Source: Myxococcota bacterium (GTDB taxonomy: Bacteria > Myxococcota_A > Polyangia > HGW-17). From it: 35,567 nt of DNA. Below the pieces are notes generated by a model. The model ran no database searches. It was not told the origin of the DNA and saw only the letters and a list, made by a program, of their open reading frames with translations. The stretch is from NCBI GenBank assembly GCA_018821305.1, contig JAHJMN010000213.1, positions 1-35,567 on the forward strand. The letters are read 5' to 3'. Positions 9,814 to 22,827 of the stretch are shown piece by piece; the first letter of the stretch is position 1, and each line of letters begins with the position of its first letter. The position numbers were made by a program, and so were the translations under genes.

Positions 9814-11118
9814 TTACTGGGCGGTAACTGTTACATTGTCCACAATCCAGTACCAGTCGAAATATGCAATGTAGTAAAAACGAATTTTAACATTTGCCTG
9901 ATTTGCGGCATAAGAACTTATATCAATGGTTTCATGTACATTGTATGTATTTGAAGACCACTGCCTGATGCCCGTTGTCCATGTGGATCCTCCGTTGGTG
10001 CTGATATCTATTCGCCCCAGGGCATCCTGATAATACTTGAAATAGTGATCAAACTCCAGGGTAACAGTTGAATAACCAGTGCAGTTGAATGTGGGAGAAG
10101 AAAGTCCCTCTTCAAAATCAGCGAAGTCATCACTGTTTACGTAGGCCACACCATTGCTTTTCAGCGTGAAAAGATCATAACCTTCGCAACTTGTGGATGT
10201 ACATTTTACCCATGTGCCTATATCAGCTCCATCATATACGGACCAACCAGTGGGAACCCATGTGCCATCAAAATTTTCTGAAAGCAGGGTTACGGGGCCT
10301 GTTGGTGTAGTGCATTCCGCTGTCGAACCATTAAGAGTACAGATTTGAGATGTCGAGGCGCAATCAGTGCCACTGGACCAGTCGAGGCATCCGTTACCAT
10401 CCGCGGTGCATGTTTGAATGACGGTCCCGCTACACTGAGAAGTACCGGAAGTGCACTGGTCATCACATACGCAGTCAGCATTAAGTCCGTTTACCTGACA
10501 AATCTGGTTAGTCAGGGCACAATCAATTGCTGTATCAAGGTGATAGCAACCCCATGAATCAGCGACGCAATCCGAAGAAGAAGTTCCGTTACAGATGCCT
10601 TCAGTGCAAGAATCATTGCACATGCAGGCAGCAACGCCTCCAACGTCACCGCAAATTCTGAGGGAGTCAGCACAGTCTTCAGAATCGGAGAAATCAAGAC
10701 ATCCACTTGCCTGGGTTTCACAGACGCGCAGGACTGAATCCTGACAAACAGTAGCTCCTTCAGTGCATTGATCCTGACAGTTAACTGAGCATTCGGCATT
10801 ACCTCCATTAAGGATACATACCATGGAAGATTCGGCACAATCAGTTCCTGCAATCCATTCTAAACAGCCGGAAATTCCTGTCTGACAGGTTGTGACAACG
10901 GCTCCTTCGCAGTAACTGGTACCAATGTTACATTCATTCGTGCAATTTGTGTTGTTAGTATTGTTTGTGTTGTTAATGTTAGTGTTGTTAGTGTTATTTA
11001 TATTGTTGCTATTGTTGGAGTTATTAATATTATTGGAATTGTTACTTGTATTGCCCTCAGCGCAGGACAGCATAAACAAGCAGGAAACCAGTGAAATAAT
11101 ACGTGTTTTGGTAAGCAT
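9814..11118 (-). CDS. Cys-rich lipoprotein with Asn-rich stalk and jelly-roll C-domain
   Basis: This 434-residue protein starts with a lipoprotein signal (cleavage before Cys19, MLSC), then an Asn/Thr/Ile-only stalk (about 23-58). Four Cys-rich modules follow (about 59-270), each holding words like GTSQCSGTVIQTC and GCLDWSSGTDCAS. The C-terminal 160 residues begin with LLSENFDG and end DWYWIVDNVTV. The STNGGSTWTTGI and IDISSYAANQANVKIRF words fit the choice-of-anchor J / cleaved-adhesin jelly-roll fold. It is probably displayed on the outer membrane, perhaps for binding glycans or surfaces. The ATG is preceded by GGGAG at about 7 nt. It converges with the U32 gene, 35 bp away, and that gap carries a partial CAGGAC repeat (9783-9795). 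Confidence 0.75.
   Translation of the reverse strand: MLTKTRIISLVSCLFMLSCAEGNTSNNSNNINNSNNSNNINNTNNTNINNTNNTNNTNCTNECNIGTSYCEGAVVTTCQTGISGCLEWIAGTDCAESSMVCILNGGNAECSVNCQDQCTEGATVCQDSVLRVCETQASGCLDFSDSEDCADSLRICGDVGGVAACMCNDSCTEGICNGTSSSDCVADSWGCYHLDTAIDCALTNQICQVNGLNADCVCDDQCTSGTSQCSGTVIQTCTADGNGCLDWSSGTDCASTSQICTLNGSTAECTTPTGPVTLLSENFDGTWVPTGWSVYDGADIGTWVKCTSTSCEGYDLFTLKSNGVAYVNSDDFADFEEGLSSPTFNCTGYSTVTLEFDHYFKYYQDALGRIDISTNGGSTWTTGIRQWSSNTYNVHETIDISSYAANQANVKIRFYYIAYFDWYWIVDNVTVTAQ
10945..11052 (-). repeat. AAY-codon microsatellite encoding the Asn-rich stalk
   Basis: About 36 codons are nearly all AAT/AAC mixed with ACT/ATT/AGT, so the DNA is a degenerate trinucleotide repeat. Changes by whole triplets would lengthen or shorten the stalk without shifting frame. 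It lies between the lipid-anchored Cys19 and the first Cys-rich module. Confidence 0.7.
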
Positions 11119-11240: not shown

Positions 11241-12173
11241 TCAGGGAGAATGTTTGAGGGGGGAAACAAGGACTGCACCGGCTTTTCCCCAGGAAATGCC
11301 AAGATCTGTGAGATTTTTTTCGGGAATCAGAGCAACAACACAACCTCCCCCTCCTTTTCCCGTAAGCTTTGCTCCGAGGGCTCCTGCGTTCAACGCAGAA
11401 TCAACAAGTAAATCAAGATGGGGAGTAGAAATCCCAGTGGCTGCAAGTTCATAATGTGCGTCTGTAAGGCATTTACCCATATTTATGAAATCAAGGGATT
11501 GGTAGAAAACAAGAAAATTCTCCATCAGAGCATTTATTTTCTTTGTGAATAAGGAAAGTTTATCCGGTGGATGTTTACGGACCTTTTCAATCATTTCTTT
11601 CGTGAGGGAGGTGTTTCCACTGAAACTTACAGCAAGAGCTAAATTCGGAGGAAGACGAAAATCAAACAGATAGAAGTTGGCACTTATCTTTTTAAGATCA
11701 CCAGCAACGCACAATTCATGAGGTGTGGATGTATATATAATACCTGAGTTATATACAACTGTTGCGTTGTCAAGACCCGATGGACGCCCGTGGAAAATTT
11801 TTTCAAATTCAAAGGAAAGCCCGTTCAGTTCAGAGATTTCTGGATTCTTTTTAAGACACATCGAGGCAAATCCTGCACTTAAAGCAGCAGAAAAACCGAG
11901 GCCGGCACCGGGTGGTATATGTGAAATAATTTCAATTTCTGCAGGCCGGCACCCGTGAGTTTCCAGGATAGTAATTGCATTCCTGATATCCGCATTAGAT
12001 TCAATTGATTTGCCGTTTAAAAATACTTTAAAAGTCGTGGAAGATTTACTTTTTAAATATATTCCCGATGAGACCGGAACACTGAGGCCATGAGAGCCAT
12101 AAAGAATACTGTGTTCTCCAAATAGAATGACTTTCCCGGGAAAAAACAGAGATTCAGTTTTGATTTGTGACAT
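11241..12173 (-). CDS. mvk: mevalonate kinase (GHMP family)
   Basis: The 310-residue GHMP kinase should phosphorylate mevalonate on its 5-hydroxyl in the mevalonate pathway. It opens with FPGKVILFGEHSILYG (11-26), the classic mevalonate kinase start. The phosphate-binding loop is PPGAGLGFSAALS (87-99); a Phe replaces the first Ser of the usual GLGSSAA. HGRPSGLDNATV (around 147-158) carries the catalytic Asp region, and LTGKGGGGC (near 275-283) is motif 3. Its first codons overlap the end of the IPP isomerase gene by 20 bp, so the two are translationally coupled. Phosphomevalonate kinase and mevalonate diphosphate decarboxylase are not in this window. A mevalonate-type assignment is preferred over other GHMP kinases because of the N-terminal motif and the isomerase neighbour. 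Confidence 0.87.
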   Translation of the reverse strand: MSQIKTESLFFPGKVILFGEHSILYGSHGLSVPVSSGIYLKSKSSTTFKVFLNGKSIESNADIRNAITILETHGCRPAEIEIISHIPPGAGLGFSAALSAGFASMCLKKNPEISELNGLSFEFEKIFHGRPSGLDNATVVYNSGIIYTSTPHELCVAGDLKKISANFYLFDFRLPPNLALAVSFSGNTSLTKEMIEKVRKHPPDKLSLFTKKINALMENFLVFYQSLDFINMGKCLTDAHYELAATGISTPHLDLLVDSALNAGALGAKLTGKGGGGCVVALIPEKNLTDLGISWGKAGAVLVSPLKHSP

Positions 12174-13197
12174 TCAGAAATCCGGAAAGAGGTTCTCCAA
12201 TGGAAAAAGGTAGATTGCAGATATCAGAAACGGAATTTGACCCCGTAAGAACCATTGCCATGCGGAATTGATTTATTATTTCAGTTATGTGGTTGAGAAG
12301 ACCGGCCAAACCACCATCAATCCAGGCTTTCACCGCTGTTCCGGCAATGGACGCCAAGGATGCTCCAATAACCAGAGATTTGAAAACATCGAGTCCGTTT
12401 CGGATACCGCCGCCGGCAATCAAGGGAAGCGATTTATTTTTGTTCATAAGTAAGCAGGCAGGAGTTGGTACACCCCAATTTGAAAAAGGAGCCATGGTTT
12501 CGATAAGATCAGAATTGTAATCGAGTTCGATGGAAAGAAAATCCGTGCCACCACTGCCACCAGTATCCAGAGCGCAGGCACCCAACTCAAGAGCACGAAG
12601 CCAGGATTGAGGCCCGAATCCCCAGCCTGTTTCTTTTAGAATTATTGGCGTATGCAGTTTTTCAGAAGCCGTCTTCAGTGTTGTTAATGTCTTGTCAAAA
12701 CAACGATCTCCACCAGCTTGAGCCAGCTCCTGCAGTCTATTGAAATGGATAAAAAGTATATCAGCTTCAATGTCATGAAGGAACGAATCCAGGGCAGATA
12801 GATCAATACTTGATAGAGTTGCTGCTCCAATATTTGCGGCATAAAAAGGGATTCCACTTTTTTTTAACTTAAAAGCAGAAGTCAGATTCGGGTTTTCGAG
12901 AGCGATACGTATACTTCCGCAACTAAGAGGCAGGCGAAAATCAGAAGCAGCCTGGGAAATATCTTCGTTGAAGGATCCTACCTCACTCGTACCTCCCGTG
13001 ATTGATGCGATCATCAAAGGGAATGAAAGTGAGTAAGTTAAAAAGTTAAGTGATGTATCAACATTGTCGAGGTCGATGTCACATAAAGGATTGTTGAAAA
13101 GCTTAATGCAGTCAAAAAGATTGGTATCTGGATAGTCGTGGTTTGTAAAATAAAAGAAATGCCGGTTTTTTCTTTCGCCGATGGAATCCGATTTCAT
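12154..13197 (-). CDS. fni: type 2 isopentenyl-diphosphate delta-isomerase
   Basis: This 347-residue FMN enzyme interconverts isopentenyl and dimethylallyl diphosphate. The family's start word RKNRHF (9-14) is present. So are the barrel motifs FPLMIASITGGTSEVGSFNED (about 59-79), PLSCGSIRIAL (about 89-99), ILKETGWGFG (the family's VKEVGxG), LDTGGSGGTDF, and IAGGGIRNGLDVFKSLVIGA near the flavin phosphate site. Length matches the type 2 family (about 340-350). The start codon shares an ATGA with the stop of the upstream HEAT gene, and its own 3' end overlaps the mevalonate kinase start by 20 bp. Type 2 isomerases usually accompany the mevalonate pathway, which agrees with the next gene. Confidence 0.9.
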   Translation of the reverse strand: MKSDSIGERKNRHFFYFTNHDYPDTNLFDCIKLFNNPLCDIDLDNVDTSLNFLTYSLSFPLMIASITGGTSEVGSFNEDISQAASDFRLPLSCGSIRIALENPNLTSAFKLKKSGIPFYAANIGAATLSSIDLSALDSFLHDIEADILFIHFNRLQELAQAGGDRCFDKTLTTLKTASEKLHTPIILKETGWGFGPQSWLRALELGACALDTGGSGGTDFLSIELDYNSDLIETMAPFSNWGVPTPACLLMNKNKSLPLIAGGGIRNGLDVFKSLVIGASLASIAGTAVKAWIDGGLAGLLNHITEIINQFRMAMVLTGSNSVSDICNLPFSIGEPLSGFLNVTNQN

Positions 13198-15230
13198 TTT
13201 CTAATTCTTCTTCTTGAGACGGACATCGCAGCTAAAATGGCAATGAAAAGTACAGCAAGTGGTCTCAAAGCGTTATTATCCCGCGAGTTGCGACAGGAAC
13301 AACCTCGAGAGTCATCTTTCTGATTATCGAAAGGTAATTTGAGGTTATTGTCTTTTACAACCGCCTTGGCATTGCTGGTTTTTGAAGAATCGTTATTAAA
13401 TGATACTTCAGGAGTGTAGTCCATAAAACGGGCAAGATACCTCATGGAATGAACTCTTACTCTGTGAAGTTCACTGGTTACAATTTTTTGAAAAAGCATC
13501 GATGCCGTTCTTTTTCCGAAGACATTAAGCAAATCGATGAGGAACTCTTTATCAACACTGTTTCGGCCATGAAAGAAAATTCGCTGAAATGCCTGATTGA
13601 AAGCCGTTCGATGCTCGGTTTTCCGACTGGCCATTAAAGCAGCAGCATATATAAAATTGATATAATCATCATTGTTTTTTCCCGCTTCCGCGGCGGCGGT
13701 AATAAGTCTTACTTCAAAGGCGGGACTCCAACTTATGCGACTTAAAGCCAGCCACACTAGTGCCACTACACGTTTGTCTGTTTCTTTTTTCAAAACATAT
13801 TCAAGTGCGGGACCCGCCCAGGGAATATCAAGCATTGCTAAAGCACTCAAAACATGGATTTTGAGGCTTTCATCCTGAGTGTATAGCAGGCTCAAAAGTC
13901 TCCCTGTGTGGTTTTTATTTTTCACAAAAGCAGCGGCAAAAACACCATTCTCTTTTACTCTTGTATTATCACTCATGAGCCATCGGGAGATATTAGTTAC
14001 GAAGGGCTCATTATAATCTGCAGTCCATCGGAGGCTTCGAGCAAGAGCACCAGTTAAAATAATGGACTTTGTTTCTATAAGTTTACGATCTTTTGAAAAT
14101 CGTCTGTCGCCATATTCGCTTAAAAGTTCTATAACTTCAGAGGCCACATTCAAATTGTTGTCATGGATAAGATGATAGACTCTGTTTTTGAGGTCCGCAT
14201 AGGCTGGTCTCAGGATACGAAGAGCCCTGAGGGCAAGAAGCCGCTGTTCCGGGACGGAGCTTTCAAGAAAATATAGTGAATCCTTTACACAATCCATTCC
14301 TCCGAGTCTGGCACAGGCCCATAGATAACCCATTCGGGCCCTTGTGGCAGGATTAAGCCTTAAACGTGAAATAACATCTGGAATAGCATTTCTGAGGTTG
14401 AGATAGGCTGCAACTGAGGCAGCCTTAACACTTATCCTGTCATTTCCATTTTTTATGAGGGCAATAATCTCTTCCTGACATGAGTCACAACCAACCTCTC
14501 CGATGGCATCAAGGACTGCCAGGCGCAGATCATCTTCTTTTGCGGCGAGAAGTGGTTTAAGTTTGTCTTTCAAAAATGATGGATTCAACTTTACAAGGGC
14601 AGTCAGGGCCGCTCTCTTCAATTGAGGATGACCAGTTTCGAAGTACTTTCGGAGGTAAAAAACGGCTTTTTTGTCTTTTAAACCTGCCAGAGCTTTAAGT
14701 GCCGCTGCCCTGACTTCAAAAGAAGGACTGGAAAGTTTCCCCGTTAGAAGTCTGAATGCTTTTGGTCCTCCGAGCTTTCCAAGAGCTTCAATAGCGGCTA
14801 GTCTTTCCCGGATGTCAGGACGATCCAGCAGCGGGATAATGGCAGGTATCGCATCACGATATTCCATTTTACCCAGAGCAATTGCACTGTTAGCACGTAC
14901 AAGCGGGCTGGGATCATGCAGTAGCAATCTGTAGATAGAAATCGCTGTGGATTTAACTTTCAGTTCGCCAAGTGCCTTAATGACTTCACCCCTTACCATA
15001 GGATTAGCATCTTTTAGCCTGCTGATGAGATGCGGAACGGCACTCTTCAATTTTTCAGACCCGATTCGGGATGCTGCTTTTATCCGGTTGTGAATACTGG
15101 AATTGTCCAGGTCAGCAATCAGTGCGGCTCTCTGTTTTGCATTAAGAGCCAGAACAGGAAAATCATCCTCATGTGCGTGAGGCGAATTCGAGATTGCGGG
15201 CACTATAAGAATAAGTAAGGAATTTATCAT
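13194..15230 (-). CDS. HEAT-repeat surface protein with MYXO-CTERM-like tail
   Basis: This 678-residue protein has a short N-terminal hydrophobic segment (about 1-19) that may be a signal peptide. The first half (about 35-340) is a run of HEAT / PBS-lyase-type repeats with words such as PMVRGEVIKALGELK, PLVRANSAIALGKME and FEVRAAALKALAGLK. Weaker repeats continue towards about residue 590. The end reads GCSC (643-646), a polar stretch, a hydrophobic segment, then SRRRIRK. That Gly-Cys / helix / Arg-Arg-Arg layout matches the MYXO-CTERM sorting signal of Myxococcota, so cell-surface anchoring is inferred. The ATG lacks a good ribosome site, and no in-frame ATG, GTG or TTG precedes it. Its stop overlaps the isomerase start (ATGA), placing a likely surface scaffold in an operon with isoprenoid enzymes. 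Confidence 0.8.
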   Translation of the reverse strand: MINSLLILIVPAISNSPHAHEDDFPVLALNAKQRAALIADLDNSSIHNRIKAASRIGSEKLKSAVPHLISRLKDANPMVRGEVIKALGELKVKSTAISIYRLLLHDPSPLVRANSAIALGKMEYRDAIPAIIPLLDRPDIRERLAAIEALGKLGGPKAFRLLTGKLSSPSFEVRAAALKALAGLKDKKAVFYLRKYFETGHPQLKRAALTALVKLNPSFLKDKLKPLLAAKEDDLRLAVLDAIGEVGCDSCQEEIIALIKNGNDRISVKAASVAAYLNLRNAIPDVISRLRLNPATRARMGYLWACARLGGMDCVKDSLYFLESSVPEQRLLALRALRILRPAYADLKNRVYHLIHDNNLNVASEVIELLSEYGDRRFSKDRKLIETKSIILTGALARSLRWTADYNEPFVTNISRWLMSDNTRVKENGVFAAAFVKNKNHTGRLLSLLYTQDESLKIHVLSALAMLDIPWAGPALEYVLKKETDKRVVALVWLALSRISWSPAFEVRLITAAAEAGKNNDDYINFIYAAALMASRKTEHRTAFNQAFQRIFFHGRNSVDKEFLIDLLNVFGKRTASMLFQKIVTSELHRVRVHSMRYLARFMDYTPEVSFNNDSSKTSNAKAVVKDNNLKLPFDNQKDDSRGCSCRNSRDNNALRPLAVLFIAILAAMSVSRRRIRK

Positions 15231-15347: not shown

Positions 15348-18300
15348 CTATAGACAATCTTTTGGACAGGAGATTTCCGTTTCCGGTGAGTTACATTGCC
15401 CATCGCCGCAGACTTCACTGCATGTATTACAATCTTCGGGGCAACTGATGCAGCTCTCCGCCGGTCCACATTGCCCATCCCCACAAACATCTCCACAATT
15501 TCCGCAGTCCATTGTGCATGTTTCGCAACTTTCCGTCAGCCCACAGTACCCATCCCCACAAACATCCGCACAAAAACCACAGTCAGCGGGGCAAAGGACA
15601 CAATTTTCCGGAGATTTGCAAAGTCCGTCACCACATGCAGGGCATGTTCCGCAATCCCCCGGGCAGGAAAGACATGTTTCCTTTCGGGAACAGATCCCAT
15701 CCCCGCAAGCCGCAGGGCACGTACCACAGTCTTTGGAGCATCGCTTACAATCTTCCGCTGGACCACATCGCTGATCTCCGCAGTAATCAGGACATTCACC
15801 ACAATCATCTTCGCAACTTGAACAGGTTTCGGTATAGCCACATATTCCGTCACCGCAGACATCAGTACATATTCCACAATCATCCTCACAGATTTGACAG
15901 TTTTCAGTACGACCGCAAAGACCATCCCCACAGGTGTCTTCACAGAAACCGCAATCCCAGGGACATGAAATACATGATTCACCGGCATCGCAGGTGTCAT
16001 CTCCACATTCAGGACAATAACCACAGTCGGCTATGCAGGAAGAACAATTTTCAGAACCATTGCAGTATCCATCCCCACACACGGGAGTACATATGCCACA
16101 GTCGGCACTACAACTTGAACAACTTTCTGAATATGAACATATTCCATCCCCGCAACTTGCGGGACAATACCCACAGTCCGCTTTGCAGTTAAGGCAGTTT
16201 TCACCGAAGGAACAGACCCCATCCCCGCACAATTTACATGTACCGCAATCGGCGGGACAGTTTTCGCAGGACTCGGCTCCAGTGCAATAGCCATCACCAC
16301 AACTATCGGAGCATAATGGATTTTCGCAATCCTCCGGACAAGTGCGGCAGTTTTCTGTTTCAGAACATGTTTCATCTCCACACCCGGGACATATTCCACA
16401 GTCCCCTCTGCAACTGGAGCAACTTTCGCCTTCTTCACAGATAAGGTTACCGCAGATCGAAGGGCAACTGCCACAATCATCGGGGCATGAACTGCAACTT
16501 TCAGCAAAATCGCAGATACCATCCCCACACAGGGGAGCACAGGGTCCGCAATCCAGGGGACATGAACTGCAGGCTTCTCCGTTTTCACAGATTAGATTAC
16601 CGCATCTGGCCGGGCAAGTGCCGCAGTCTGCAGGGCAGGACTTACAGGTTTCAATGCTGCCTTCGCAAATACCATCTCCGCAGGTGGAACTGCAATCGCC
16701 GCAATCCTCCGGACAGGAGAGGCAGCTTTCCTCAAGTTCGCATATAAAATTACCACAGACGCTATCACATGTGCCACAATCCTGTGGGCAGGAATTACAA
16801 GTCTCTACTCCTGAACATTGTCCATCTCCACATGAAGCACATGAACCGCAATCCAGGGGACAGGTATTGCAATTTTCCGATGGAGTTCCCGATGTGTCAC
16901 ATACGGAATCACCACAATAATGATCACAAACTCCACAATCCCCGGGGCAAGTGGCGCAGTTTTCGGACAGACCGCAGATTCTATCTCCACACACATCTCC
17001 ACATGAGCCGCAGTCTGCAGGGCATGCGGCACAACTTTCGGTAGAGCCGCATTTGCCATCACCGCAAACATCAGGACAATTTCCGCAGTCCCAACTGCAA
17101 CTGGAACAGGATTCTGAATTTGAACAAATGCCATCGCCGCATGTAAAATTACAGTTTCCACAGTCTGAAGTGCATGTTACGCAGCTTTCTGAAGCATTAC
17201 AGACACCATCACCGCACCTTGGTGGACAATAACCGCAGTCTCCCGGGCACATGCTGCAGGTTTCAGAAGCTTCACAGATCCCATTTCCGCAATTGGCGCA
17301 GATCCCGCAATCATCAGGACAACTGGCGCAGGTTTCCGATGGGCCACAAATTCCATCACGGCAGGAATCAGGGCATAATCCGCAGTCATCAGAGCAGGTC
17401 AGACAGCTTTCAAGAGGACTGCAGACGCCATCACCGCATATTTCAGTACAGTAACCGCAGTCAGTGACGCAACTCAGGCAACTTTCGATTGGTTCACATA
17501 TACCGTCCCCGCAGATGCCGCTGCAATTTCCACAATCAACAGGGCATGAATAGCAGTTTTCGTCATTCGAACATGTCCCATCCCCGCAATCCGGGCAGAT
17601 TCCACAATCATCGGGGCAGGTAGAACAGTCCTCAGTGGTTTCACATCTTCCGTTGCCGCAAAATGCAGGACAGTTGCCACAATCAACGGGACAGTCGCTG
17701 CAATCTTCCGTTTGCCCGCATATGTTATCACCACAGATGTCAGGACAAAATCCGCAGTCTGTGTTGCAGTTCGTACAGTTTTCCGACGTATCACAAGTTC
17801 CGTTGCCGCAAAGTTGACAATTTCCACAATCAGTAGAGCACGAAAGGCAGTTTTCAAGGGGAGAGCATGTGCCATCTCCGCAGTAGCCACTGCAATTTCC
17901 GCAGTCTGTGTTGCAGTCTGAGCAGTTTTCCGATGGTCCGCATACCCCGTCCCCGCAAGTGTCGGGGCATGTTCCGCAGTCCGTGATACAATTGGAGCAT
18001 GTTTCCTCACCACTACAGTTGCCATCGCCACAACCAGGGCAGACTCCGCAGTCTCTGGGACAATTAGAGCATGTTTCGTTACCGGAACATGTATTGTCCC
18101 CGCAAGTGTCAGGACAGCCCCCGCAATCATCAGGACAGTTTGAACAATCCTCGGTGTTGTTACAGTTTCCGTCCCCGCAGATTTCTGGACATGTTCCACA
18201 ATCAACAGGGCAGGAAAGGCAACTTTCTCCGGCATCGCAGATCCCATTTCCGCAGTCCGGGCAATTCCCACAATCAATCGGGCAACTATAGCAACTCTCA

Positions 18301-18644
18301 TCAACTGAGCATGTTCCGTCCCCGCAGGGATCTGGGCAGTTCCCGCAATCATCAGGACAATTGGAGCATGTTTCATCGGTGTCGCATACGGAATTACCAC
18401 ATGTGCAGATTCCACAGTCTATCTGGCATGATGAGCAGTCTTCTGATTCTTCACAGTCACCGTTTCCGCAAACGGCAGGGCACTCTCCGCAGTCATCGGG
18501 GCAGGAAGAACAAGTTTCTCCGGATTCACATTTATTATTGCCGCATTCGGGAAGGCCTGTGATTCCGGTCCAAGTGCGGCCACAGGAATAAAACATTGCA
18601 GATGAGAAAATAAAAATTATAAATATATATCTAAAGTTAAACAT
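15348..18644 (-). CDS. giant lipoprotein of 43 six-cysteine repeats
   Basis: This 1098-residue protein has a hydrophobic start (1-20) with a loose lipobox before Cys21 (FYSC). From Cys34 to the last residue it is nothing but tandem repeats of 24-25 residues with the pattern CGDGxCxxxExCxxCPxDCGxC. I count 43 units by eye. Nearly all keep six cysteines, so roughly 255 residues, over a fifth of the protein, are Cys. Exceptions are unit 17 (CRDG), unit 23 (a three-residue insert), unit 30 (ends CENPLC) and the last unit, which loses one Cys and stops after DCL. Conserved Asp, Glu and Gly suggest small disulfide- or metal-stabilised modules in a long rod on the cell surface. GGAGAG precedes the ATG by about 5 nt. 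Function is unknown. It lies divergent from the secretin gene. Confidence 0.85.
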   Translation of the reverse strand: MFNFRYIFIIFIFSSAMFYSCGRTWTGITGLPECGNNKCESGETCSSCPDDCGECPAVCGNGDCEESEDCSSCQIDCGICTCGNSVCDTDETCSNCPDDCGNCPDPCGDGTCSVDESCYSCPIDCGNCPDCGNGICDAGESCLSCPVDCGTCPEICGDGNCNNTEDCSNCPDDCGGCPDTCGDNTCSGNETCSNCPRDCGVCPGCGDGNCSGEETCSNCITDCGTCPDTCGDGVCGPSENCSDCNTDCGNCSGYCGDGTCSPLENCLSCSTDCGNCQLCGNGTCDTSENCTNCNTDCGFCPDICGDNICGQTEDCSDCPVDCGNCPAFCGNGRCETTEDCSTCPDDCGICPDCGDGTCSNDENCYSCPVDCGNCSGICGDGICEPIESCLSCVTDCGYCTEICGDGVCSPLESCLTCSDDCGLCPDSCRDGICGPSETCASCPDDCGICANCGNGICEASETCSMCPGDCGYCPPRCGDGVCNASESCVTCTSDCGNCNFTCGDGICSNSESCSSCSWDCGNCPDVCGDGKCGSTESCAACPADCGSCGDVCGDRICGLSENCATCPGDCGVCDHYCGDSVCDTSGTPSENCNTCPLDCGSCASCGDGQCSGVETCNSCPQDCGTCDSVCGNFICELEESCLSCPEDCGDCSSTCGDGICEGSIETCKSCPADCGTCPARCGNLICENGEACSSCPLDCGPCAPLCGDGICDFAESCSSCPDDCGSCPSICGNLICEEGESCSSCRGDCGICPGCGDETCSETENCRTCPEDCENPLCSDSCGDGYCTGAESCENCPADCGTCKLCGDGVCSFGENCLNCKADCGYCPASCGDGICSYSESCSSCSADCGICTPVCGDGYCNGSENCSSCIADCGYCPECGDDTCDAGESCISCPWDCGFCEDTCGDGLCGRTENCQICEDDCGICTDVCGDGICGYTETCSSCEDDCGECPDYCGDQRCGPAEDCKRCSKDCGTCPAACGDGICSRKETCLSCPGDCGTCPACGDGLCKSPENCVLCPADCGFCADVCGDGYCGLTESCETCTMDCGNCGDVCGDGQCGPAESCISCPEDCNTCSEVCGDGQCNSPETEISCPKDCL
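15351..18545 (-). repeat. coding tandem repeat array, 43 units of about 72-75 bp
   Basis: The DNA of the giant Cys-rich gene is a diverged direct-repeat array with a unit of 72 or 75 bp. Units differ at many third positions and at the variable residues, so the array is old rather than recently expanded. Because of the biased composition, other frames on both strands also stay open over hundreds of bases; these are shadows. Confidence 0.85.
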
Positions 18645-18909
18645 CTTAACTCTCCACCCGTTAATCTATATCGGTCATTTCTGTGAGGATATTAATTTGT
18701 ATTTAAGCCCATTGCGGGAAAAGAGCAGATCTACATATGTTCTTCAACTCAATCCTGAGGTAATGATTTGAAACTGACGGCCTTTTAGAGTGTAAATATT
18801 TATTCCACAAATCAAATTTTTATTGTAAAGTACATGCTACCGTATTTTCTTCCTTGACCTGACTCAGTCATATTGGCAGACTCATGTACGGTAAACAGGA
18901 GAAGAGAAA
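18645..18909. promoter_or_regulatory. divergent control region with a TGACTCAGTCA palindrome
   Basis: These 265 bp separate two divergent starts, so both promoters must lie here or overlap. On the plus strand TTGACC (18854-18859) could be a -35 box, but no good -10 follows. It is directly followed by the perfect palindrome TGACTCAGTCA (18860-18870), a possible operator. AGGAG precedes the secretin GTG start. The rest is AT-rich with nothing I recognise. Confidence 0.35.
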
Positions 18910-20340
18910 GTGAAAGCATTATTTTCAACCGCAAAACTTTTTTTGATCAGCGCTATTCTGCTTACGGTTTCAATAGCTTCCGCCCAGCAGATCAGCCAGA
19001 CCATTTCCCTCACTGGAGGCCAAAGCGAAACAATTCGTTTTGATGGTAAGATCACCGGGGCCATCCGGATACTCGATCCCAAAGTCGCCGATGTCGTTAG
19101 TGCCACTACAAATTCGGTTACTGTAGTCGGTATCGGAGCGGGTACGACAGACTTGTATGTAAACGTCGGAAAAGAAAGAGTTCGTATCAGAATCGACGTT
19201 GTGAGTGGAAAAGTCGGTCCTCGAGTACGTTCAGTGCAGGGGTTCCTGGACAAAATCGAAGGTGTTTATGTAAAGCCCGTTAGTGAAAAAATCGTCATTG
19301 ATGGTAATGTTTACACTGCTGCGGATTATTCCAGAGTAATGAAAGCTGTTGACTTATTCGGTAAAGACGTTGTTAACTATACAAAATATCGTCCAAGTGC
19401 CGTGGAAGAAATCAACAAAACCCTTCAGGCTGCTGGCATGACCACAGTAAAAGCAACTCTTGTAGCTGGTGCAGTTTTTATTGAGGGCGCTGTTGGTTCC
19501 AAGGGCGAAATGGAAAAACTGAAGGCTATTATTGATGCAATGCATCTAAAAGTTAACAACCTTGTTTCCATGGGTGAAGGCGCTCAGGTTCAGGTTAAAG
19601 TTCGTTTTATGGAAGTCAGTTCATCAAATCTTGTGAACTTTGGGCTTCAACTTCCCGATGCCCTCGTTCTCAGCGGTGAATTTACCGGAAACGTTCCAAT
19701 TAAAGGACCCGGTCAGACAACCATGGGATTTTCCCTTAAAAGCCCTGAAGCACTTCTGAGTTTCAAACTCAATCTTCTGTTCAAGCAAGGCTATGCTAGA
19801 ATTTTAGCTGAACCAAAACTCGTATGTGGTAGTGGTGGCAAAGCTAAACTTATGGTTGGTGGCGAAGTTCCAATTCCACTTATCACCCAGACGACAGTCG
19901 CCGTTGAGTGGAAGCAGTTTGGTATCATGCTTGAACTTCAGCCTGTTGCTAACAGCCGTGGTAACATTACCTTAACTCTGAAAACAGAAGTTTCTGATAT
20001 TGACTGGTCTTTGGCAGTTATGGGTTATCCAGGATTCAGAAAACGAAAAGTTGAAACTGTTGTTACCATGAAAGACGGTTCAACACTTATTATCAGTGGT
20101 CTTTATAAAAACAATCGTTCCAAAAACGTCAGGAAATTCCCTCTTCTCGGTCACATCCCAATTCTCGGTGAACTTTTCAAATCTCGTGACTATAATGAAG
20201 AAAAATCTTCTCTTGCAATAATGCTTACCCCCACGGTAGTACATTCAGAACAACTGAAAATGAAGGAATCTATTCAACTTGTTGAAAGTAAATTCCTTGA
20301 TTTCAATAAGTACCTTTATTGGGATTTATTCCTTGAATAA
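18910..20340 (+). CDS. cpaC: secretin of a Tad/type II-like system (CpaC/RcpA-like)
   Basis: This 476-residue outer-membrane channel protein has a clear signal peptide cut near SIASA (25/26). The N-terminal pilus-secretin domain (about 26-100) contains GGQSETIRFDGKITGAIRI and VGIGAGTTDLYV. A middle ring-building domain (about 105-225) precedes the secretin domain (about 235-455). The latter holds ARILAEPKLVCGSGGKAKLM and GGEVPIP, the CpaC version of the family signature, then KQFGIMLELQP and LIISGLYKN, followed by PLLGHIPILGELFKSRDY. The start is GTG, with AGGAGA about 7-8 nt upstream. It leads a four-gene run with the FHA-CpaF ATPase, which supports a Tad-type assembly. A TadB/TadC platform, pilin and prepilin peptidase are not visible nearby. 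Confidence 0.87.
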   Translation: MKALFSTAKLFLISAILLTVSIASAQQISQTISLTGGQSETIRFDGKITGAIRILDPKVADVVSATTNSVTVVGIGAGTTDLYVNVGKERVRIRIDVVSGKVGPRVRSVQGFLDKIEGVYVKPVSEKIVIDGNVYTAADYSRVMKAVDLFGKDVVNYTKYRPSAVEEINKTLQAAGMTTVKATLVAGAVFIEGAVGSKGEMEKLKAIIDAMHLKVNNLVSMGEGAQVQVKVRFMEVSSSNLVNFGLQLPDALVLSGEFTGNVPIKGPGQTTMGFSLKSPEALLSFKLNLLFKQGYARILAEPKLVCGSGGKAKLMVGGEVPIPLITQTTVAVEWKQFGIMLELQPVANSRGNITLTLKTEVSDIDWSLAVMGYPGFRKRKVETVVTMKDGSTLIISGLYKNNRSKNVRKFPLLGHIPILGELFKSRDYNEEKSSLAIMLTPTVVHSEQLKMKESIQLVESKFLDFNKYLYWDLFLE

Positions 20341-20415: not shown

Positions 20416-22827
20416 ATGATCACTGTTATAGTAACGGAAAAAGGCGGCGAGCCCCGAAGATTGACTTTTGATGACAATATTGGTGAACTGAAAATCGGTA
20501 GAGTTCAAGGCAATGAGATTATTCTTCCGAAAACCAATGTTTCAAAAATGCACGCAAAAATAGTTGTTCGCAATGGCGAGTTTACGATTTTTGATAATCA
20601 ATCTACAAACGGAACCTATGTTGATGGTCGCAGGATTACGGCTCCAAAACAGATTACTGGTGCCAATAAAGTATTCATTGGCGAATTCATGATTTATATA
20701 GAAGATGGCTCAGGAATTCCACACAGTATGGATGACATGCCGGCGACAGGTGCTCCTCCTCCGCGTCAGGCTCCTCCTCCACCCCCGGCAGGTGGAAGAC
20801 CTCCTCAGAGAAATGCCCCGCCTCCGCCTCCCATTAGAGGTGGAGCTTCAGATCTGGATGATGATCTTTTCCCTGCGATGGATGATGGCTTCGGGAGTGC
20901 TCCTCCTCCTCCGAGAAGTAGACCGGCACCTCCTCCAGCAGGTGGTTTTGATGATGATCTTTTCGGAAATGACGACCTTGGTCTGGATGCTCCCCCGGCG
21001 CGACCAGCTCCCGGTGGCCCACCACCTCGTCGTCCAGCCCCGACACCGATACAGCAGTCACCACTTCTTGATGATGACCTTGGTCTGGATGCTCCAGCAC
21101 CTACCAGACCTGCTCCCCCGGCGCGACCAGCTCCCGGCGGCCCACCACCTCGTCGTCCAGCTCCTCCTGCTCTTGAGGATGATCTTGGTCTTGAAGAACC
21201 GGCGTATCAAGCACCGGCTCCTCCGGCAAGACAGGCACCACCACCAGCTCAGGCAGCTCCGCCACCAGCATATCAAGCACCGGCTCCACAAGCGGCTCCA
21301 CCACCGGCGTATCAGCAGCCCTACCAGCAGCAGCAAGCATATCAAGCTCCCCCTGCAGCTCAGGCAGCTCCACCACCGGCGTATCAGGCTCCTCCACCAG
21401 CTCAGGCAGCTCCGCCACCGGCGTATCAGGCTCCTCCTGCAGCTCAGGCAGCTCCGCCTCAACACCAGCATGCCCCGGCTCAGCCCAAACAGGCTCCGAA
21501 ACCCAGTGGTGGGCCTGCGAAAAATAAAAAAGGTGGAATTGATCCTAAACTTGAAAAGATTTCTCTGGTTCAGAAGAAAATCCATGATCGATTGATCGAA
21601 AAAATGGATCTCCGACGAATGAATCTGGACGAAATTCCCGAAGAGGAACTATGGGATCGCACTGATGCCATTATCTGTGAAATAGTCGATCAAATGGCCA
21701 GCGCCGGCGAGCTTCCCAGCTTTGTAGATCAGGATGAACTTATTAAAGACGTCCTGAATGAAGCTCTTGGTCTTGGTCCTCTACAGGATTTCCTTGAGGA
21801 TGACTCTATTTCAGAAATTATGGTCAACCATTCAACCCAGATTTACGTTGAACGAAGTGGTAAATTGACTCTGAGTGAGAAAATTTTCTCTTCTGATCAG
21901 GCTGTATTGGGCGTTATCGAACGCATCGTTGCTCCCATTGGTCGCCGCATTGACGAAAGTTCTCCTTTAGTTGATGCTCGACTCAAAGATGGCTCCCGTG
22001 TTAACGCTATTATTCCGCCTCTTGCTCTCAAAGGTCCTTGTATTACTATTCGTAAGTTCAAGAGGGACGTACTTGGGATTGACGAACTTATTAAGTTCAA
22101 TACTCTCACACGAGGCATGGGCGATTTCATTAAAATGTGTGTTATCGCCAGAAAAAATATTATTATTTCCGGTGGTACTGGTTCCGGTAAAACTACTACC
22201 CTGAACATTATTTCAAACTTCATACCTGAGGGCGAGCGAATCATTACCATTGAAGACGCCGCTGAACTCCAGATACAGAAACTTCACTGGATTCAGTTAG
22301 AATCCCGGCCTCCAAACATTGAAGGCAAGGGCGCAATAACAATTCGCGAACTTATGAAGAACACTCTTCGTATGAGACCAGACCGAATTGTCGTCGGCGA
22401 GTGCCGTGGTGGTGAGGCTCTGGACATGCTTCAGGCAATGAACACTGGTCACGATGGGTCATTAACAACCATCCATGCCAATACTCCGCGTGACGTTCTT
22501 TCCCGTCTTGAAACCATGGTTTTGATGAGTGGTATGGATTTACCTGTTCGAGCCATTCGAGAGCAGATTGCAAGTGCCGTTGATATTATTGTTCAGCAGA
22601 CACGTTACAGTGATGGTTCCAGAAAGATTACATATATTACTGAAGTTACCGGTATGGAAGGAGAAATTATCACAATGCAGGATATTTTCAACTTCCGTCA
22701 AGAAGGCTACGATGCTGAAAATAAAGTTCTTGGCAAGTATGTCGCAACCGGTTTCATGCCAAAATTCTACGACGATCTTCGCAGAAAGGGCATACCAGTA
22801 GATATGAGCATCTTCAGAGAACAGTAA
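20416..22827 (+). CDS. cpaF: FHA domain fused to CpaF/TadA-type secretion ATPase
   Basis: This 803-residue fusion has three parts. Residues 1-97 form a canonical FHA domain: GR (28-29), Ser43 and His46, STNGTYVDG (63-71), so phosphothreonine binding is expected. Residues about 105-375 are a Pro/Ala/Gln linker with AYQAPPPA-type repeats and four short acidic words of the DDDLF or DDLGLD type (near 148, 178, 219 and 254). From about 375 to the end it is a VirB11/CpaF ATPase with Walker [10 protein letters not shown] (about 585-593), Walker B RIVVGE (about 657-662) and the [12 protein letters not shown] His box (about 679-690). It should power secretion or pilus assembly through the upstream secretin. 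AGGAG lies about 10 nt before the ATG; the gap to the secretin gene is 75 bp. The FHA domain suggests kinase control of the motor. Confidence 0.92.
20740..21500 (+). repeat. Pro/Ala-rich linker repeats in the ATPase gene
   Basis: The DNA for the linker contains repeated blocks. GACCTTGGTCTGGATGCTCC occurs at about 20977 and 21076, each followed by matching codons for a Pro-Ala-rich run ending at ArgArgProAla. From about 21200 CAGGCAGCTCCGCCACC-like units follow. The similarity extends to silent positions, so it reflects recent internal duplication, and the linker length probably varies between strains. Confidence 0.6.

Follow-up and report, generated by a model that had tools for sequence, protein, structure and literature searches.

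The minus-strand gene at positions 15348-18644 of the window, by which we mean the whole stretch of 35,567 nucleotides analysed (contig JAHJMN010000213.1 of a Myxococcota bacterium), encodes a putative lipoprotein of 1098 residues that consists almost entirely of 43 cysteine-rich units. The number of units is about constant, at 43-45 in full copies, across taxonomic families. We propose that the product is probably a rod or spacer of defined length that is acidic, locked by disulfides and anchored by a lipid.

The gene and its product

The preliminary description of this DNA had placed the gene correctly at 15348-18644. The open reading frame runs on the minus strand from an ATG at 18644 to a stop at 15348, whereas the corresponding frame of the plus strand is interrupted by stops; the coding sequence is defined by this translation together with its orthologues. 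A Shine-Dalgarno-like GGTGGAGAG, read from the sequence at 18651-18659 (minus strand) just upstream of the ATG, supports the start. The N-terminus of the translation is hydrophobic and leads to FYS-CGRT, so that a signal peptide and lipobox ending at Cys21 (MFNFRYIFIIFIFSSAMFYS followed by CGRT) are predicted at 18582-18644 (minus strand). Cys21-Gly-Arg is unchanged in all 6 full-length sequences aligned, which agrees with the earlier claim of a lipoprotein, and the lipoboxes of the orthologues include VAA-C, TAA-C and SVS-C. The residue at -3 of the F-Y-S-C lipobox is atypical, which counts against the proposed explanation. Judged by signal peptide and lipobox, the predicted assignment as a bacterial lipoprotein is supported. 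The protein is strongly acidic, with 196 D+E against 25 K+R+H and a pI of about 4.

C-G-R-[S/T] also opens the mature part of many otherwise different repeat lipoproteins (L043, L044, L052, L053, L055-L060, L063, L065, L069, L072 and L073), where it possibly acts as a sorting signal.

The repeat unit

Unit parsing places the array at residues 34-1098 (15351-18545, minus strand), head-to-tail and up to the last residue of the protein. Each unit follows the pattern C1-G-[DN]-x-x-C2-x3-E-x-C3-x2-C4-x2-D-C5-G-x-C6 and ends with a linker 2 or 3 residues long; the consensus is CGDGxCxxxExCxxCPxDCGxCPxx and the units are 23-28 residues long. Units 23 (28 residues), 26 (26 residues) and 30 (27 residues, with DCENPLC) are irregular, and the last unit, 43, is shortened, C3 and C6 being exactly the cysteines that it lacks. 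The 43 units described previously are confirmed, and the cysteines, estimated then at about 255, number 257: six in each of 42 units, four in the last unit and the lipobox Cys21. They make up about 24% of the protein.

Units are about 54% identical to one another in protein sequence. Their DNA identity has a mean of 56% and a maximum of 72%, the longest exact internal repeat is 20 bp, and Tandem Repeats Finder detects only one 2-copy array of 21 bp in the gene. Such diverged DNA with so short an exact repeat indicates an old repeat at the protein level and not a recent or mis-assembled expansion. An assembly artefact, which had been raised as a possible objection, is ruled out by the 20-bp longest repeat together with the orthologues in at least 7 other genomes; independent assemblies carry an array of equal length.

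A six-unit model predicted by AF2 from 99 rows (pLDDT 75.7, pTM 0.28) is fairly confident for single units and not for the geometry between them. It shows one short helix of one turn per unit, at C4-P-x-D. A full-length AlphaFold prediction with six orthologues reached a pLDDT of 34, and both this value and the low pTM count against a stiff rod. The modelling thus supports compact single units, and the rod shape is deduced from the short linkers and the repetition. The long stiff surface fibre imagined in the preliminary description may exist in the form of such a rod. If each small disulfide module is taken, as a rough estimate, to span 1.2-2 nm, the array would measure 50-85 nm, which exceeds the usual width of the periplasm.

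Unit number and linker order in orthologues

On its contigs 90 and 56, the genome that carries the gene (G000; 5.2 Mb, 97.7% complete) also encodes smaller proteins that contain this unit. A match to the repeat protein was found in 36 of 59 related genomes, and 35 of 318 genomes of the class have one at E ≤ 1e-60. In the phylum sample, 1e-90 was reached by a single genome from outside the class, whose protein of 2096 residues has a different architecture. The purity of the array and its repeat number had been called unusual: such arrays proved common in relatives, and it is the 43-unit copies that are rarer.

Orthologues are 56-69% identical to the protein over most or all of its length. Full-length ones come from two genomes of the same family (G001, G002), from a further family of the order (G010) and from a different family of the class (G016, G033, G041, G025). 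The G033 copy ends at the end of its contig, and the G025 copy (L041, 7520-11131, minus strand) has an in-frame stop near unit 36 that reflects either decay or a sequencing error. A 1684-residue open frame antisense to a GC-rich orthologue (L039, 5707-10758, minus strand) most likely results from the composition of the repeat.

The copy number of tandem repeats usually differs from strain to strain. In this case, 43 units were counted in G000, G001, G002 and G016, 44 in G041 and 45 in G010, as well as 42 in G033, whose copy is cut at the contig end. The order of 2- and 3-residue linkers is identical at every comparable unit among G000, G001 and G002. Between families it matches at 41 of 42 units for G016 and at 40 of 41 for G033, and in the offset copies at 39 of 42 for G010 (with a shift of two units) and at 40 of 42 for G041 (with a shift of one). 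Ten short linkers can be arranged among 42 in about 1.5e9 ways; early in the array they fall at units 4, 7, 10 and 13, that is, at every third unit. Identity at variable residues also peaks in register, at 0.51 against a background of about 0.23 and at 0.33 against about 0.21 in the nearer orthologues, and at 0.27-0.32 against about 0.21-0.24 in other families, the peak of G010 being only slight.

A shorter version in G100 has about 30 units and the same order of unit lengths in its tail. This copy, those of 44 and 45 units and the same-family genomes that lack the gene indicate that the length is not universal and that the gene is not indispensable. Other families of the class have a sister subfamily of CGR[S/T]-type lipoproteins, seen at L052, L053, L055-L060, L063, L065, L072 and L073. 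These proteins resemble the 43-unit protein in the unit and in the CGR[S/T] that follows the lipobox, but differ in their shorter arrays of 14-16 units, in their mostly uniform, near-constant unit lengths and in a separate C-terminal cysteine domain common to them. Their unit number looks conserved too. The paralogous proteins at L045 (8734-10590, minus strand), L018 and L102 contain another cysteine-rich module, roughly C..PGC.GC.C..CVC..D..CC...WD..C...C, and Pfam has no match for the L045 protein.

Selection on the cysteines and the conserved acidic residues

In the nearest orthologue, 256 of the 257 cysteines are kept, and 114 of these 256 codons are silently changed. All comparable cysteines are kept in the remaining class-level orthologues (overall range 99.6-100%), while identity at positions other than C, G, D and E is 22-28% outside the genus. 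In G033 and G016, a less diverged pair, 251 of 251 cysteines are kept, and dN is 0.077 against a dS of 0.36. The cysteines are under strong purifying selection over class-level distance, and the objection, anticipated in the preliminary description, that relatives might lack such selection is contradicted by these values. Over 7 orthologues, the residues invariant in nearly every unit are the cysteines, Gly2, the Glu after C2, the Asp before C5 and the Gly after C5. A conserved patch of residues other than C, G, E and D is absent from almost every unit. This restriction of invariance to C, G, E and D fits a scaffold and not a receptor.

The binding of Ca2+ or another metal suggested in the preliminary description is compatible with the invariant acids. 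They could serve to hold Ca2+, together with the [DN] at position 3, which is mostly conserved, and the array would then be a calcium-stiffened rod or a calcium sink, a reading that can be combined with that of a rod or spacer. As this reading expects, practically every unit of every orthologue has the Glu and the Asp, and the strong acidity of the protein suits it as well. However, small disulfide folds also use invariant acids to cap helix turns and tight loops, and no Ca2+-repeat family matched in Pfam or NCBIfam. The Lin-12/Notch repeat (LNR, PF00066) is a small three-disulfide module that uses Ca2+ and has a D-C close to its end, but its cysteine spacing differs from that of the unit described here. 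A Pfam search at E up to 10 did not detect it in the protein. A Foldseek search (PDB, viral) with the six-unit model, whose unit-to-unit geometry is unreliable, returned nothing significant; the weak matches at its best E of 3.4 (TM 0.17) were to PAPP-A, a protein that contains LNR modules. We regard Ca2+ binding by the units as rather unlikely.

Comparison with TraA and other cysteine-rich repeats

The protein (P0001) has no match among Pfam and NCBIfam models at E up to 10, and a sequence search of the PDB gave nothing significant. We found no description of the CGDG motif or of such high-cysteine proteins in the open-licence literature, where broader searches yielded TraA-related work at best; a description elsewhere is possible. 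The myxo_disulf_rpt/DUF4215 repeat (TIGR02232/PF13948) is a cysteine-rich acidic repeat that occurs in the same genome and begins with CG[DN]G..E.C, and one protein of this genome matches both P0001 in our search and TIGR02232. P0001 itself gave no match to this family at E up to 10, and 1 of 99 repeat fragments matched it at E = 2.

The closest functional analogue is TraA (TIGR04201), the kin receptor of myxobacteria. In Myxococcus xanthus, TraA is an exported surface protein whose tandem cysteine-rich repeats have been proposed to form a rigid stalk (PMC3325183, PMC6372800). Tandem cysteine-rich repeats are common to both proteins, but TraA has few repeats, of about 20 residues with three invariant cysteines each, and carries a ligand domain resembling PA14 as well as a MYXO-CTERM anchor at its C-terminus, whereas the protein described here has 43 units, nearly all with six cysteines, lacks any other domain and bears its lipobox at the N-terminus. 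No NCBIfam family, TIGR04201 included, was matched at E up to 10. We favour the view that the protein works like a disulfide-rich stalk. As TraA does, particular units might also bind prey, kin or substrate, and the protein would then be an adhesin or receptor, in keeping with the stalk proposed for TraA and with the frequent action of surface lipoproteins in contact. This appears improbable: unlike TraA, the protein has no ligand domain, its units extend to the last residue, almost none of them shows a conserved surface patch, and no family was matched.

Paired cysteines and oxidative folding

The co-variation of the cysteines was analysed over 939 distinct units from all loci fetched, collected by a scan that required at least 3 of C1-C5. 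C1, C2, C4 and C5 are present in all 939 units selected in this way. C3 and C6 are both present in 811 units and both absent from 115, and they are discordant in 13, of which 11 have C6 only; several of these look like mis-called cysteines in other spacings. The units are related to one another, so that a nominal p value overstates their independence. Units with four cysteines also occur in an archaeal record (L007). C3 and C6 thus come and go as a pair, a pattern that points to disulfides rather than to metal ligation, supports the disulfide bonding surmised earlier and suggests, from co-variation, a predicted C3-C6 disulfide within the unit.

Reduced cysteines might alternatively make the array a thiolate metal store of the metallothionein type, as the cysteine content, the CxxC spacings and weak, non-significant matches to copper storage protein profiles (best E 0.067) could suggest. 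We consider this very unlikely, since the protein is an exported lipoprotein with an even number of cysteines per unit, C3 and C6 are lost as a pair with the other four untouched, and a store needs neither a fixed number of units nor a linker pattern. The alignments to the cytosolic copper storage protein (Csp) look driven by cysteine and alanine composition, and its helical-bundle fold differs from the AF2 model, with its single helical turn per unit.

The heavy load on the periplasmic disulfide machinery that had been predicted from the sequence is plausible. The genome encodes about five DsbA-fold proteins, which indicates that capacity for oxidative folding is present; no VKOR was found in it. 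One open reading frame of about 824 residues (L103, contig 21 of G000) contains three DsbA-like domains with CPWC, CPYC and CPFC motifs.

Neighbourhood and history of the gene

The repeat gene lies between the gene of a HEAT-repeat protein with a MYXO-CTERM-like tail (13194-15230, minus strand; domain matches) and that of a divergent pilus-type secretin (18910-20340, plus strand; domain matches), as it also does in G001 and G002. The C-terminus of the HEAT protein consists of GCSC, a hydrophobic stretch and SRRRIRK, and scores 14.7 with TIGR03901 against a cut-off of 20 bits. The secretin gene is followed by that of an FHA-CpaF-like ATPase (20416-22827, plus strand), which has a Pro/Ala-rich tandem-repeat linker (DNA repeat at 21340-21458). 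In four relatives, G003, G004, G006 and G007 (L076-L079, L092-L094 and L096), the HEAT gene adjoins the secretin gene at a distance of about 170-410 bp, and the repeat gene is absent; several same-family genomes that lack the gene at this site are 70-88% complete. In other families, the repeat gene stands beside genes with a laccase domain and an OmpA domain, or beside an aminotransferase gene. An operon with the HEAT protein or the secretin was rejected because of these four relatives and of the other neighbours in other families, and the HEAT protein is probably not a functional partner, as its gene adjoins the secretin gene without the repeat gene. The empty site indicates that gain or loss affected the 3.3-kb gene as a whole and, together with the differing neighbours, that the gene moves or is lost as a unit with no conserved operon partner. 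In a tree of eight orthologues with long branches and biased composition, G010 groups with the copies of the other order (support 92/92), and horizontal transfer of the gene is possible on this evidence.

The gene might also be accessory cargo that has spread between lineages and is of little use to its present host, or else an assembly artefact, but this reading scarcely deserves credence: the empty sites, the changing neighbours, the grouping of G010 and the in-frame stop of the G025 copy would fit it, but the strong purifying selection on the cysteines over class-level distance, the 20-bp longest exact repeat and the same array in several independent assemblies largely refute decay or artefact, and leave horizontal spread itself possible.

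Other genes of the window were also noted. A lipoprotein-like product encoded at 9814-11118 (minus strand) has an Asn/Thr-rich low-complexity stretch (DNA repeats at 10946-11044) followed by cysteine-rich modules, and its C-terminal domain has no Pfam match. Genes of isoprenoid type surround the locus at 419-2325 and 11241-13197 (minus strand), UbiA-like and polyprenyl-synthase-like by eye. They include an FMN-dependent protein, like a type 2 IPP isomerase, and a GHMP kinase, which suggests a mevalonate route.

Discussion

We infer the disulfide state, the rod shape, the outer-membrane or surface position and the role as a spacer from the features described above. The protein would be exported unfolded by Sec, lipidated at Cys21 and oxidised by the DsbA-type enzymes of the cell, and it would be anchored in the envelope, most likely in the outer membrane. 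Three disulfides, one of them C3-C6, would hold each module, and the 43 small modules would be joined in line through their 2- or 3-residue linkers into one rod. Its job would most likely be mechanical or geometric, as a spacer, tether or fibre for which length and twist matter and surface chemistry hardly does.

A more specific form of this proposal, which we put forward tentatively, is that of a molecular ruler: a lipid-anchored, disulfide-locked rod, selected for its length and twist, that would fix a distance across or beyond the envelope. Conceivably, the twist and the total length of such a ruler are set by its 2- and 3-residue linkers, whose order is conserved. The array might, by the same tentative reading, have been held at about 43 units since before the families of the class diverged or exchanged it.

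With up to 128 disulfides in one chain, the protein poses a demanding test for oxidative folding in the periplasm. The array keeps its count of more than 40 units, its cysteines and its linker order while the rest of each unit drifts, and the family thus offers a natural test of selection on the length of a repeat protein. The unit occurs in many genomes of the class, yet neither Pfam nor NCBIfam has a model for it, and we found no solved relative; one family model and one structure would allow a large number of envelope lipoproteins to be annotated.
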